DNA of 5,275 nucleotides from Dehalococcoidales bacterium (GTDB lineage: Bacteria; Chloroflexota; Dehalococcoidia; Dehalococcoidales; UBA3254): the NCBI GenBank assembly GCA_028718465.1, contig JAQULX010000243.1:1-5275 (forward strand), given 5' to 3'. Below, piece after piece: positions 164-5,275 of the stretch. Position 1 is the first letter of the stretch, and the number at the start of each line of letters is the position of its first letter. A program made the translations under genes and the position numbers. Under the pieces are notes generated by a model that saw only the letters and a program-made list of their open reading frames with translations, had not been told where the DNA came from and searched no databases.

Positions 164-1297
164 CTACTTAGGTGTAGCCAGGAATTGCTGGATGGTTTCA
201 TAAGCCGCCTGGGCAGGCAGCCCTTTGGCTTCCTTTTCGGCTACCCATTGCTGGGCGACGGTATCAGCTACTTGCTTAAAACGAGCTTTTTCAGCATCTG
301 AGAGGGTATAGACATCCATACCGGTTTTCTTAAGAGATTCAAATCCAATGTCATCTTTATCCGCATAAAAGTTCTTAACTTCTGTCTTATAATCTATGAT
401 CACCTGATCGATAATCTCCTGAATGTCGGTAGGCAGGCTGTCCCAGGCCTGTTTACTCATGACGATTGTGGGACCTCCAATTCCGACCGGCGGATCCCAA
501 ATACAGTATTTAGATACCTCATAAAGTTTGATTGCCAAAACATATGACCAGGCTGTGGTGTATCCATCAATAACTTTGCGGTCCATAGCCATATAGATTT
601 CCGGCCCGGTTATGGCCACCGTAGAAGCTCCCAACGCCTCGAAGTAAGCATTAAAAGGAGGAGCAGATCCTCTCATTTTCAGGCCCTTATAATCCTCTAC
701 CGTCTGTACTTTTTTTGAGCCGAAAAATTGGTTTAGCGGGGCTCCTCCCTTAAATCCCATGACCTTGAATTGATTAAGCCCCTTGAAGTAGCCCTTGTTA
801 TAAACTTCCCACATAATATCAATAAGGGTATTTCTATCAGGGATTCCCACCAGAGGCAAGTCGGTTATGGTCTCGAGTTCAAATACACCGGGATATACGG
901 CCAGCATTAATGAACCCATTTGAGCCACCCCACCATTCAGCATATTAACCCAATCTGGCGCTTTGCCCAGACTTTCTGTACCGTAGTAAACCGCATTCAC
1001 TCGTCCCCCGGTACGTTCATTGATCATCCTGGCCAGTATCATATCCGCTTCAGCATCATCGCTTCCAGGAACCCACTGGCTGGTCCATCTGAGCTCAATG
1101 GTTTTTGCAGCAGGCGTTGTCGCCGCTGCCTGGGTAGTCGGGGGAGCAGTGGTCGTAGTAGTTGCAGGAGTTGTAACACCGGGAGCCGGGGAGGTGGCCG
1201 GAACGGTTGGAGTTGACGTGGAGCAGGCTCCTACAATTCCGACTGTCAGAACCATTACCAATACCAAACTAATACAGAATAATGTTTTCCTGGACAT
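164..1297 (-). CDS. TRAP transporter solute-binding lipoprotein (DctP family)
   Basis: This 377-residue protein is the extracytoplasmic receptor of a tripartite ATP-independent periplasmic (TRAP) transporter, which binds an organic anion and delivers it to ion-driven membrane subunits. Residues 1-24 form a lipoprotein signal peptide: Arg-3/Lys-4, a hydrophobic stretch, then a lipobox Val-Gly-Ala before Cys-25. Residues 26-65 are a Thr/Pro/Ala-rich tether, and the DctP-type domain runs from about 67 to the end. Arg-209, in the Gly-Leu-Lys-Met-Arg segment, matches the family's conserved arginine that salt-bridges a substrate carboxylate. The following Ala-Leu-Gly-Ala, Glu-Ile-Tyr-Met-Ala-Met and Val-Ile-Asp-Gly stretches also fit the family. 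The start has AAGGAGG (1312-1306) eight bases upstream. The substrate cannot be read from the sequence; a carboxylate is likely. A membrane-subunit gene probably follows at the window edge. Confidence 0.9.
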   Translation of the reverse strand: MSRKTLFCISLVLVMVLTVGIVGACSTSTPTVPATSPAPGVTTPATTTTTAPPTTQAAATTPAAKTIELRWTSQWVPGSDDAEADMILARMINERTGGRVNAVYYGTESLGKAPDWVNMLNGGVAQMGSLMLAVYPGVFELETITDLPLVGIPDRNTLIDIMWEVYNKGYFKGLNQFKVMGFKGGAPLNQFFGSKKVQTVEDYKGLKMRGSAPPFNAYFEALGASTVAITGPEIYMAMDRKVIDGYTTAWSYVLAIKLYEVSKYCIWDPPVGIGGPTIVMSKQAWDSLPTDIQEIIDQVIIDYKTEVKNFYADKDDIGFESLKKTGMDVYTLSDAEKARFKQVADTVAQQWVAEKEAKGLPAQAAYETIQQFLATPK

Positions 1298-1836: not shown

Positions 1837-2526
1837 GTGATGGATTTGGTACAGGTTGTAAAGCAGCGGAAAAGCATTCGGGCTTTTACTTCCCAGTCGG
1901 TTCCACAATCTATTCTGGAAGAGATAATGACACTGGCGCTGCGAGCTCCATCCTGGGCTAACACCCAACCCTGGGAATTTGCAGTAGCTACCGGTGACAA
2001 GTTAGCAGAAATACGCAGGAAATACGTGGAAAAGGCTGGGGATACTCCAATGCCGGATATTCCGAGCATCGCCTATTACCCGGAGCCTTACAACTCACGG
2101 ATGCATACGGCAGTATCCAAATCGCATGCCGCCAAGGGTATTCAGCGAGAAAACAAGGAGCAAAGAAGGGAATGGGAAATTATACAATTGAACAACATGG
2201 GATCTCCCTGTGAAATCTACGTCTGTATCGATCGGTCTTTTTATCTGCATGACGGAAGCACTAACGTCTGGCCGATATACGATTGCGGTGCTATAGTCGG
2301 AATGATCACACTTCTGGCCACAAATTTTGGTTTGGGGACAATCATCCAGGCCCGAGCTGTGATTTATCCTGATATCATTAGAGATGTCCTGGGGCTGCCG
2401 CAATCCAAGCTCCTGCTCGTTGGCGTTGCCATCGGCTACCCTGATTGGAATGATCCACTTAACCAGTATGCAACCGATAGAGAGCCACCTGACAAGATCA
2501 TTAGCTGGCATGGTTTCGAAAAATAA
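1837..2526 (+). CDS. nitroreductase-family flavoprotein
   Basis: This 229-residue protein belongs to the FMN-dependent nitroreductase fold family, whose members reduce nitro groups, quinones, enones or other acceptors with NAD(P)H, usually as homodimers in the cytoplasm. The N-terminal Arg-11-Lys-Ser-Ile-Arg-15 is the family's FMN phosphate-binding motif. Pro-38-Ser-Trp-Ala-Asn-Thr-Gln-Pro-Trp-46 is the second flavin-contact segment. Asp-149-Cys-Gly-Ala-Ile starts the helix carrying the dimer-interface region, and Gly-164 onward (Phe-Gly-Leu-Gly-Thr) and Ile-199-Gly-Tyr-Pro are the usual C-terminal flavin motifs. The protein has full family length, ending in Trp-His-Gly-Phe. A charged stretch at about 94-115 (many Lys, Arg, Glu) is probably the variable substrate-lid region. 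It is the first gene of the presumed operon, 79 bases ahead of the glycyl radical enzyme. The substrate is unknown; an ene- or quinone-type reduction linked to the pathway is only an inference. Confidence 0.88.
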   Translation: MMDLVQVVKQRKSIRAFTSQSVPQSILEEIMTLALRAPSWANTQPWEFAVATGDKLAEIRRKYVEKAGDTPMPDIPSIAYYPEPYNSRMHTAVSKSHAAKGIQRENKEQRREWEIIQLNNMGSPCEIYVCIDRSFYLHDGSTNVWPIYDCGAIVGMITLLATNFGLGTIIQARAVIYPDIIRDVLGLPQSKLLLVGVAIGYPDWNDPLNQYATDREPPDKIISWHGFEK

Positions 2527-2605: not shown

Positions 2606-5014
2606 ATGAGTACAAAGGAATCAATCAACGTTCAGAAGGAAATAACCCGAAGCCAAAGGTTATGGGAGCGTCTATTGGAAACTCGCAGTACTGCTCCGGT
2701 TTCCCAGTGGCGAGCCAGGCTGCTGACAGCTTCATGGAAGGAAACTGAAGGCCTCCCGATTCCAATAAGAAGGGCCAAAGCCTTTGAAAAAATAATGAAC
2801 GAAGTCCCGATATTCCTGGACGAAGATCAACTCCTGGCAGGTAATTATGGGAGCTGGCCGATGGCAATAGAATGGAGGCCGGAAACTACCGTTGAATGGA
2901 TAAATGAACGATTCGAGGCTGGTATCGGCCGACTGATAATTAAAGAAGAGGATATCCCGGAGATCAAAGAGATTGCCGCCTATTGGAAGGATAAAGACGT
3001 CTTCTCGCGTTATCATCGCTATATAGGAAAAGAGGAGGAACAACGCCTTAAAGACCGCGATTTCATGGGAGCTTATCTGGGACATAGCTATTATCCTGCC
3101 CTGTGGGCGTTGGGATGGTTTATACCGGATTACCCCAAGGCTATCCGCAAGGGACTGCTGGGCATTCTTGCTGAAGTCAAACAGGAAATTCAATCTACGC
3201 CCCTGCTTGATGAAGCTTCACAGAATAAGCGATTCTTCCTCGAATCACTGGAGATAACAATAAAAGCAGCGATCCAGTATGCTAAAAGGCATGCGGCTCT
3301 AGCCAGGGAATTGGCTCAGACTGCCGAAAGCAAACGAAAAGACGAACTGGAGAAAATAGCTGAAATCTGTGAATGGGTTCCCGCTAATCCAGCCCGCACG
3401 TTTTATGAAGCCTTGCAAACACTCTGGTTCTGTAACCTGTTTATATTCTGGGACTCCCAATATGAGGGAGTTTCCCCTGGACGGGTAGATCAGTATCTCT
3501 ATCCTTACTACCGGAAAGATATCGAAGAAGGAAGAATAACCAGAGAAGAAGCCATAGAGATTTTGGAACTTCTAAGGTGTCTATTCAGCACATACCGCGT
3601 ATTTCTCGAAGCCGCTCACGCTACACGGACAGCCGGAGAAGCCAACTGGTTCAACTGCATGCTGGGTGGTCTAACCGCAGATGGTCAGGATGCCACCAAC
3701 GAACTTTCCTATCTCTGGCTGGAAGCAGCCAAAAGATTGGGTACGCCTCATCCAACACTTTCGGTTAGAGTCCATGATAAGATGAATGAGGACTTTGCTT
3801 TAAAGGCGGCCGAGTTATGTAGTCTGGGGCGGGGCTACCCGGCCTTCTTTGGAGATGAAAGCAACATCGGTTTTTTACGCAAGCAGGGTATCCCTGAAAA
3901 CGAAGCCTGGGATTATGCTATCGCAGGGTGTACATTGACTCAAGTCCCTGGAAGGATGGCGCCGGCTAATCCATTTGGAATGAATATTCCCAAGTTCCTG
4001 GAATTAACCCTTCATAACGGAGTAGACCCCCGAACCGGCAGGCAATTCGGACCTCAGACAGGCAGCCTGGAAAGTTTTGAAAATTATGAAGACTTATGGG
4101 AAGCTTACCGACAACAGGTAAGAAGCTATATCCGGCAAGGAGCGGATGATTTCCGAAAAGCCTCTCTCTTCCAGGCAACTGTTCTGCCTCACCTGTTCCC
4201 TTCAGTTCTGGCCGATGATTGCATAAAACGCGGTCAACCTCATAACGGACAGGGATGCCGCTATCAACAGGGAATGTGGTATCTTCTTCCTCAAGGACCT
4301 ATCGATGTAGCGGATTCGCTGGCTGCTATCAAGAAATGTGTTTATGAGGATAAGACCATTACCAAGAGGCAGCTAATGGAAGCCCTGGCGGCCGATTTTG
4401 AAGGAGAGAAAAACCAGACCGTACGACAGATCCTGTTATCAGCTCCTAAATACGGCAACGATGATGATTATGTCGATCTTATTGCCAGAGATGTCTATTC
4501 TATGCTGGATATTGAGCTGGCTGATATCAATGCCTGTTATGGCGCCAAATATGTCCAGGCTCCACACAGTCTCACCGGACATGGTGCTTTCGGGAGAGCG
4601 GTCGGAGCTCTCCCAAGCGGTCGAAGGGCCTGGGTGGCTCTGGCGGATGGGAATGCCTCTCCTTCTCAGGGTATGGACAAGAAGGGGGTAACGGCAGTTC
4701 TCAAATCAGCGAGTAAACTGGACCAGCTACCCATGCAAGGCTGTCTATTGAACCAGAAACTTCATCCTTCCACTTTGAAAAGCAAGGAAGATTTAAATAA
4801 ATTTGTCTCCCTTACCAAGACCTATCTTATTAATCTTAAAGGCAAACATATTCAATTTAACGTTATCAGCAAAGATATATTACTGGATGCCAAAGCTCAT
4901 CCGGAGCAATACCGAACCCTGGTTATCCGGGTAGCCGGCTACAGCGCCTTATGGGTAGACCTGGATAGTGTTATTCAGGACGAAATCATAGCTCGCACAG
5001 AACAAGAACTATAG
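2606..5014 (+). CDS. glycyl radical enzyme, PFL/glycerol dehydratase family, atypical active site
   Basis: The 802-residue product aligns over its whole length with the pyruvate formate-lyase-like family, close in size to glycerol dehydratase (787). The N-terminal PFL domain includes Glu-47-Thr-Glu-Gly, Pro-291-Gly-Arg-Val-Asp-Gln-Tyr and Gly-354-Gly-Leu-Thr-Ala-Asp-Gly. The C-terminal loop Arg-775-Val-Ala-Gly-Tyr-Ser-Ala carries the radical-bearing Gly-778, and Cys-442 is the expected thiyl residue. Gly-669-equivalent signatures (Gly-Ala-Leu-Pro-Ser-Gly-Arg, 667-673) and His-748-Ile-Gln-Phe-Asn-Val are intact, so the gene looks functional. What is odd is the catalytic motif: Gly-Cys-Thr-Leu (441-444) instead of Gly-Cys-x-Glu. 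Compared with glycerol dehydratase from memory, Trp-171 replaces His-164 and Glu-287/Gly-288 replace His-281/Ser-282. A specific reaction (diol dehydratase, choline lyase, isethionate lyase, decarboxylase) is therefore not assigned. The start has AGAAGG six bases upstream. The enzyme needs a radical-SAM activase, which is not in the window. Confidence 0.93.
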   Translation: MSTKESINVQKEITRSQRLWERLLETRSTAPVSQWRARLLTASWKETEGLPIPIRRAKAFEKIMNEVPIFLDEDQLLAGNYGSWPMAIEWRPETTVEWINERFEAGIGRLIIKEEDIPEIKEIAAYWKDKDVFSRYHRYIGKEEEQRLKDRDFMGAYLGHSYYPALWALGWFIPDYPKAIRKGLLGILAEVKQEIQSTPLLDEASQNKRFFLESLEITIKAAIQYAKRHAALARELAQTAESKRKDELEKIAEICEWVPANPARTFYEALQTLWFCNLFIFWDSQYEGVSPGRVDQYLYPYYRKDIEEGRITREEAIEILELLRCLFSTYRVFLEAAHATRTAGEANWFNCMLGGLTADGQDATNELSYLWLEAAKRLGTPHPTLSVRVHDKMNEDFALKAAELCSLGRGYPAFFGDESNIGFLRKQGIPENEAWDYAIAGCTLTQVPGRMAPANPFGMNIPKFLELTLHNGVDPRTGRQFGPQTGSLESFENYEDLWEAYRQQVRSYIRQGADDFRKASLFQATVLPHLFPSVLADDCIKRGQPHNGQGCRYQQGMWYLLPQGPIDVADSLAAIKKCVYEDKTITKRQLMEALAADFEGEKNQTVRQILLSAPKYGNDDDYVDLIARDVYSMLDIELADINACYGAKYVQAPHSLTGHGAFGRAVGALPSGRRAWVALADGNASPSQGMDKKGVTAVLKSASKLDQLPMQGCLLNQKLHPSTLKSKEDLNKFVSLTKTYLINLKGKHIQFNVISKDILLDAKAHPEQYRTLVIRVAGYSALWVDLDSVIQDEIIARTEQEL

Positions 5015-5043: not shown

Positions 5044-5275
5044 ATGGAGAGACGTTTTCTGGGGAAATCCGGCCTTTTGGTATCTGAATTATGCCTCGGA
5101 ACCGCAACGTTTGGGGGACTTGGCGAATACGGTAAGTCAGGGCATATTAATCAGGATGAGGCCAATCTGATAATAAGTACGGCGCTGGACTCAGGAATAA
5201 ACCTTTTTAACACAGCCGAAACGTATTCGGAGGGACTGGCCGAAGAGATATTGGGAGAAGCGCTGGGAAAGAGGC
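5044..5275 (+). CDS. aldo/keto reductase, N-terminal part (partial at window end)
   Basis: Seventy-seven complete codons are visible before the window ends. The start is supported by GAGGTGG (5031-5037), six bases upstream, and lies 29 bases after the stop of the glycyl radical enzyme, so the two are probably co-transcribed. The opening Arg-Phe-Leu-Gly-Lys-Ser-Gly-Leu-Leu-Val-Ser-Glu-Leu-Cys-Leu-Gly-Thr (4-20) is the first strand signature of bacterial aldo/keto reductases. Gly-51-Ile-Asn-Leu-Phe-Asn-Thr-Ala-Glu-Thr-Tyr-61 corresponds to the catalytic-tyrosine segment, followed by the Glu-Glu-Ile-Leu-Gly-Glu-Ala-Leu helix. These enzymes reduce aldehydes or ketones with NADPH on a TIM-barrel fold. 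Tyr-61 is present, but the usual catalytic aspartate five residues earlier is Asn-56. The Lys and His of the catalytic set lie beyond the window. Its role may be to reduce a carbonyl product of the radical enzyme (inference). Confidence 0.88.
   Translation, partial: MERRFLGKSGLLVSELCLGTATFGGLGEYGKSGHINQDEANLIISTALDSGINLFNTAETYSEGLAEEILGEALGKR

Follow-up and report, generated by a model that had tools for sequence, protein, structure and literature searches.

The stretch of DNA analysed here, 5275 bases in all (hereafter, the window), encodes a glycyl radical enzyme (GRE) of the clade that contains the arylacetate decarboxylase (AAD) of Olsenella scatoligenes, with a pocket that has been further remodelled; the kind of enzyme is already known, and the variant is new. 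On the alignments made here, the lack of glutamate two residues after the thiyl cysteine (Cys+2, the last position of the Cys-x-Glu or CXE motif) appears as the hallmark of the whole AAD-containing clade. We tentatively propose, with confidence a little short of even, that the enzyme would use its thiyl radical, independently of glutamate, to decarboxylate a TRAP-imported and probably aromatic carboxylate, as a member of a subfamily separate from AAD and with a substrate unlike that of AAD.

Sequence features and radical machinery

Residue counts refer to an alignment of 200 clade rows, made up of 195 proteins longer than 755 amino acids (of 203 listed, 8 of 755 or fewer being omitted from the counts) and five loci, with 20 outgroup GREs. 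Four of the five locus rows duplicate a protein row, leaving 196 independent clade rows. The clade rows come from searches with the window GRE and AAD, the best 120 listed for each, so that the size of the clade is a lower bound and the sampling favours both queries. One outgroup row, 8iof, is titled N-methyl-cis-4-hydroxy-D-proline dehydratase in its entry; one listing calls it a benzylsuccinate synthase alpha subunit, and it was included under this incorrect name. The features of the window are as follows.

164..1297, minus strand: divergent gene for DctP, the solute-binding protein of a TRAP transporter (PF03480)
1837..2526, plus strand: nitroreductase-family flavoprotein gene (PF00881), upstream of the GRE gene with a gap of 79 bp
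2606..5014, plus strand: GRE open reading frame of 802 amino acids with an ATG start (PF02901, PF01228; trees)
3116..3118, plus strand: Trp171, aligned with His164 of glycerol dehydratase (GDH), equivalent to AAD Trp176 (Trp in 154 and Tyr in 42 of 200 clade rows)
3596..3598, plus strand: Arg331, clade signature, equivalent to AAD Arg337 (198/200 clade rows, 0/20 outgroups)
3647..3649, plus strand: Trp348, subfamily mark, aligned with HypD Phe340 and AAD Phe354 (Trp in 28/28 subfamily rows, Phe in 36/37 of the AAD set)
3749..3751, plus strand: His382, clade signature, equivalent to AAD His389 (200/200 clade rows, 2/20 outgroups)
3929..3931, plus strand: Cys442 (TGT), thiyl radical site (200/200 clade rows, 20/20 outgroup rows)
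3935..3937, plus strand: Leu444 (TTG), at the position of the CXE glutamate, aligned with GDH Glu435 (Glu in 0/200 clade rows)
4565..4567, plus strand: His654, in the beta-8 segment, aligned with GDH Tyr640, equivalent to AAD His660 (His in 155 and Tyr in 44 of 200 clade rows)
4937..4939, plus strand: Gly778 (GGC), glycyl radical site in RVAGYSALW (200/200 clade rows)
5044..5275, plus strand: start of an aldo/keto reductase gene (PF00248), 29 bp past the GRE stop and cut by the end of the window

The protein, which looks intact, is a member of the GRE superfamily of oxygen-sensitive radical enzymes and comes from a branch that has received little study, with the PFL-like (PF02901, 584 bits) and Gly_radical (PF01228, 103 bits) domains and both the cysteine and the glycine loops. 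Its predicted fold has a mean pLDDT of 93.5. When this fold was compared with solved structures, diol dehydratases scored above AAD in both Foldseek and VIA-align; the fold is therefore non-discriminating, and this ranking counts against an AAD-type decarboxylase.

The initial annotation had described Cys442 and Gly778 as intact and Leu444 as standing where glutamate is expected. Both observations are confirmed, the radical residues being invariant in the 200 aligned relatives and Leu444 falling at Cys+2 in the alignment with GDH (1r8w). Equally, its comparison with GDH held when aligned by MAFFT L-INS-i: His164, His281, Ser282, Glu435 and Asp447 of GDH, in the numbering of 1r8w, correspond to Trp171, Glu287, Gly288, Leu444 and Asn455 of the window GRE, all five residues being replaced and the acid/base set lost. 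The glycerol and diol dehydratases, CutC, HypD and IslA own both the glutamate of Cys-x-Glu and a histidine or polar residue at the beta-1 site, whereas the window GRE has neither.

The loss of the glutamate is common to the clade. The Cys+2 residue of the 200 clade rows is Leu (129), Val (29), Ile (26), His (6), Gln (3), Thr (2), Asn (2), Ser (2) or Ala (1), and never Glu or Asp; the outgroups have Glu in 15 and Asp in 2 of 20 rows. Since Cys442 and Gly778 are invariant and glutamate never appears at Cys+2, the altered site is neither chance nor simple decay. AAD (7e7l) itself reads GCVLHQVPGK, that is, GC-V-L, with Leu at Cys+2.

Other residues at this position were seen beside the clade. 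Two neighbouring GREs of SURF_39 (L023 and L028, genome G001) have Asp at Cys+2 (GC-L-D) and form a sister branch to the Glu-less clade, and a Bathyarchaeota GRE (L007:9785-12412) has Gly (GC-L-G) and its own long branch.

Placement among glycyl radical enzymes

In a search of the PDB, the solved structure nearest in sequence was 7e7l, with 580 bits (runner-up, 461 bits); it is labelled hydroxyphenylacetic acid decarboxylase, and its entry title names the arylacetate decarboxylase of Olsenella scatoligenes. This AAD structure is reportedly that of Lu et al. 2021. The window GRE and AAD are 36% identical (289 of 792 aligned columns).

Three trees were built: a quick one of 54 rows, another quick one of 48 rows, to which the AAD search contributed bridging relatives, and a careful one of the same 48 rows; BssA, MasD, PhdB and PFL are absent from them. 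The window GRE and AAD fall in one clade in all three (SH-aLRT 100 in each quick tree, 100/100 in the careful tree), and membership of the AAD-containing clade is firm. In the careful tree, the window + AAD clade comprises 28 rows (100/100), with an inner set of 22 (97/99), and excludes the rows of HPAD, IAD, the diol dehydratases, IslA and HypD; within it, the window subfamily is distinct from AAD (100/100). AU tests, whose groups were chosen after the first tree had been inspected, rejected two arrangements: AAD, HPAD and IAD as one group (p 9e-7), and AAD external to all other clade members (p 0.001). In a FastTree of 220 rows, the 200 clade rows stand apart from the 20 outgroups (support 1.0), as do the window GRE and its nearest listed relatives (P0001-P0028) from everything else (support 1.0).

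The GRE of Dethiobacter SURF_39 (L001) shares with the window GRE 49% identity, the clade, a leucine at Cys+2 (GC-V-L) and a DctP gene in its locus; unlike it, it keeps the AAD-like His349, His445 and Trp455 and has an adjacent activase gene. At the thresholds applied, no relative closer than this one appeared in the genome samples searched (G001 phylum, 149; G001 class, 97; G002 phylum, 345; G005 phylum, 247; G006 phylum, 250), of which the G005 phylum sample overlaps the G002 sample and three of the five yielded nothing above the cut-off, which alone is no evidence of absence. Viral contigs gave no match to the window GRE; among plasmids, the 15 listed of 142 matching records are 35.2-36.6% identical to it. 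From the names of a few hits alone (P0035, P0066, P0198, P0221, P0234), the host may belong to the Chloroflexota.

HPAD (L037) and IAD (L026 and L031), so named by NCBIfam, have the GRE fold and the chemistry suspected here, arylacetate decarboxylation, in common with the window GRE, and differ from it in their GC-x-E motif, their separate branches and their length (899-913 amino acids). Glu1 (Cys+2) and Glu2 (Glu637) of HPAD are Leu444 and Leu561 in the window GRE, which scores 382 bits against an NCBIfam cut-off of 1150; Glu502 and His514 of IAD are Leu444 and Asn455, with 555 bits against a cut-off of 1100. An X-succinate synthase, which the initial annotation had already set aside, likewise finds little support in sequence, the scores with MasD (336 bits) and TutD (298 bits) being well below that with AAD. 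None of the small subunits of such synthases lies directly beside the GRE in the window, whose flanks are short.

Several relatives came in company. The GREs of the Desulfovibrionaceae MAG E02__bin324 (G002; L002, L011, L031, L033, L035, L037) form an unusual collection of arylacetate decarboxylase types: two belong to the AAD branch, one is an IAD equivalog and one an HPAD equivalog, another narrowly misses the HPAD cut-off, and one has Gln at Cys+2 (GC-V-Q). The proteins P0022 and P0023, P0021 and P0026, and P0035 and P0066 have equal longest contigs (15436, 37402 and 62701, respectively), and each pair is probably encoded on a single contig; in the first two, a GC-T-L type is paired with one of the GC-V-I type.

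Residues of the pocket

Besides Arg331 and His382, Glu89 marks the clade (198/200 clade rows, 3/20 outgroups), and Lys747 (174/200, 2/20) and Tyr559 (173/200, 2/20) are frequent in it and scarce among the outgroups. Position 171 holds Trp or Tyr in 196/200 clade rows, with a single Trp among the outgroups, and position 654 is never His and 9 times Tyr in the 20 outgroups. AAD and the window GRE both have Arg331, His382, Glu89, Trp171, Tyr559, His654 and Lys747, each present in at most 3/20 outgroups. The column of Trp171 is His in the HypD row, and the beta-1 site, close to this column, supplies substrate-interacting residues in IslA, CutC and HypD, according to the available part of PMC8473560. 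His654 stands two residues ahead of the column of HypD Thr645 and IslA Phe682, described in the portions available of PMC7077986 and PMC8473560 as binding or packing near the substrate. These correspondences suggest that the signature residues, 171 and 654 among them, may line the active-site pocket.

Against this common background, the window GRE and its 27 nearest listed relatives (P0001-P0028, 28 rows) were compared with 37 proteins of the AAD set. AAD has Trp at the site of GDH His164 and lacks either glutamate of HPAD, as does the window GRE; other pocket positions set them apart. Position 349 is Phe in 27/28 subfamily rows, including the window, and His (AAD His355) in 37/37 of the AAD set; position 445 is Ser, Thr or Ala in 28/28 (Thr in the window) and His (His452) in 37/37; position 455 is mixed in the subfamily (Arg 16, Asn 3, others, no Trp; Asn in the window) and Trp (Trp462) in 37/37; position 553 is Tyr in 28/28, window included, and His (His560) in 32/37; and position 561 is Leu in 28/28, again with the window, and Val (Val568) in 36/37. 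The 135 remaining clade rows have His349 in 118, His445 in 80, Trp455 in 62 and Tyr553 in 103. Histidines at 349 and 445 are thus commoner in the sampled clade and it is the window subfamily that departs, while His553 belongs mainly to the AAD set.

The replacement of His355, His452 and Trp462 in the subfamily, residues expected of an isofunctional AAD, makes it likely, judging from these columns, that the substrate of the window GRE differs from that of AAD; it is the strongest argument for such a difference and, with the change at His560, also counts against an AAD-like reading.

The arginine of 16/28 subfamily rows at the residue-455 column, after the cysteine loop, is possibly a carboxylate anchor; the window has Asn there.

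Gene neighbourhood

The window, which ends 261 bases past the GRE gene, contains no gene for a radical-SAM activase; a Radical_SAM gene adjoins the GRE gene in L001, L002, L003, L004 and L011. In L001 the genes are a sigma-54 regulator, the GRE, the activase and DctP, the last lying downstream of GRE and activase. A search for a sigma-54 site in the window gave 2 matches against 3.9 expected and was rejected. Beside the sigma-54 regulator of L001 and upstream of its GRE lies a short ORF with the middle region of RACo, a corrinoid reductive activator family (L001:6101-6700), which hints at methyl-transfer genes nearby.

The divergent DctP gene of the window fits the import of a carboxylate. However, the window and L001 DctP proteins are just 31% identical over 171 residues and thus need not bind the same compound. 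In a comparison of two lists, no listed DctP homolog was traced to the same contig as a listed GRE relative, which counts against a reading linked to DctP. Among four AAD-like loci, two (L004 and L011) have an MFS gene; the next downstream gene encodes a cNMP-binding regulator in L002 and IF-3 in L003, so that the transporter context is inconstant even among AAD-like loci.

Proposed reaction and alternatives

The initial annotation had attributed a glutamate at Cys+2 to arylacetate decarboxylases. This is true of HPAD and IAD and not of AAD, which has Leu, nor of PAD, the phenylacetate decarboxylase PhdB, for which the accessible text of PMC9248008 implies Gln. Its interpretation, a different substrate and reaction, is partly supported: the substrate probably differs, given a pocket unlike that of AAD, but reading an unknown reaction from a Glu-less motif alone is not supported. 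It had itself named clustering with a characterised GC-x-L enzyme as the result that would speak against it, and AAD is such an enzyme. This clustering leaves decarboxylation open to the window GRE, and the published work on AAD already documents decarboxylation by a GRE that has Leu where CXE enzymes have glutamate.

For HPAD, a Kolbe-type route with two glutamates has been proposed, for IAD hydrogen abstraction at the alpha carbon has been argued for, and AAD decarboxylates despite the absence of residues conserved in HPAD (all from the available part of PMC9248008); a different radical mechanism for AAD is mentioned in the portion available of PMC13285125. In the pathway that we propose, a carboxylate would be delivered by the TRAP transporter, with the DctP of the window taking part in its uptake. 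A radical-SAM activase encoded outside the window would generate the radical at Gly778, which would move to Cys442. The thiyl radical of Cys442 would then, on the most economical scheme, abstract, without any glutamate, a hydrogen of the substrate next to its aryl group, and loss of CO2 would be followed by return of the hydrogen, abstraction and CO2 loss being as proposed for PAD and IAD. We infer that a decarboxylase is the best-supported single guess, although 36% identity to AAD lies in a range where GREs can differ in reaction, which counts against it.

A GRE of the same clade might instead cleave a C-O, C-N or C-C bond, or carry out a radical addition, its substrate not requiring the CXE glutamate. 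We regard this as a serious possibility, though a doubtful one: four pocket columns are unlike AAD, which has His or Trp there, the clade is broad (L/V/I/H/Q/N/T/S/A at Cys+2), nitroreductase-family and aldo/keto reductase genes flank the GRE gene, and the chemistry of GREs is hard to predict from sequence, as stated in the part available of PMC8473560. However, AAD, the one clade member found to have been characterised, is a decarboxylase and shares with the window GRE the residues conserved throughout the clade. With about the same probability as this alternative, the window subfamily (Trp348, Phe349, Ser/Thr/Ala445, no Trp455) might perform an undescribed GRE reaction on an environmental carboxylate, the set His382/Arg331/His654/Trp171 taking the catalytic place of the Cys-x-Glu acid/base pair; if so, the Glu-less clade as a whole would have radiated over many substrates around a single mechanism independent of glutamate.

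The remaining explanations are much less probable. That the protein is a true AAD, decarboxylating p-hydroxyphenylacetate, is very unlikely in spite of the clade and GC-x-L motif that they share: their identity is low, the subfamilies are distinct, the His and Trp residues of the AAD set are replaced, and the window has a TRAP protein where L004 and L011 have an MFS gene. An eliminase of the CXE type, with a different acid standing in for the lost glutamate, is only slightly easier to credit; Glu287 lies at the beta-2 column of HypD Asp278 and Glu89 is nearly invariant in the clade, yet Glu287 occurs in just 6/28 subfamily rows, the beta-1 His is Trp in the window, and the tree separates the window GRE from the sampled CXE eliminases. 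Loss of the known acid/base residues might also suggest an inactive or decaying paralogue, which we consider extremely improbable. The initial annotation was right to dismiss a decayed gene, with a full-length ORF, Cys442 and Gly778 kept and a Cys+2 residue that is never Glu in 200 rows; moreover, the pocket columns are much alike across the 28 subfamily rows. We take the enzyme to be functional and probably active.

Implications

Where the proteins of this clade have names, they are mostly called formate C-acetyltransferase or pyruvate formate-lyase/glycerol dehydratase family GRE. The tree sets the clade apart from the glycerol and diol dehydratases (pyruvate formate-lyase is not in the tree), and one characterised member was found in it; searches of the PDB and the literature found no assay or structure of any member besides AAD. 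The substrate of any other member would show if Glu-free GREs break bonds in one way, and it could be relevant to carbon turnover in anoxic environments.
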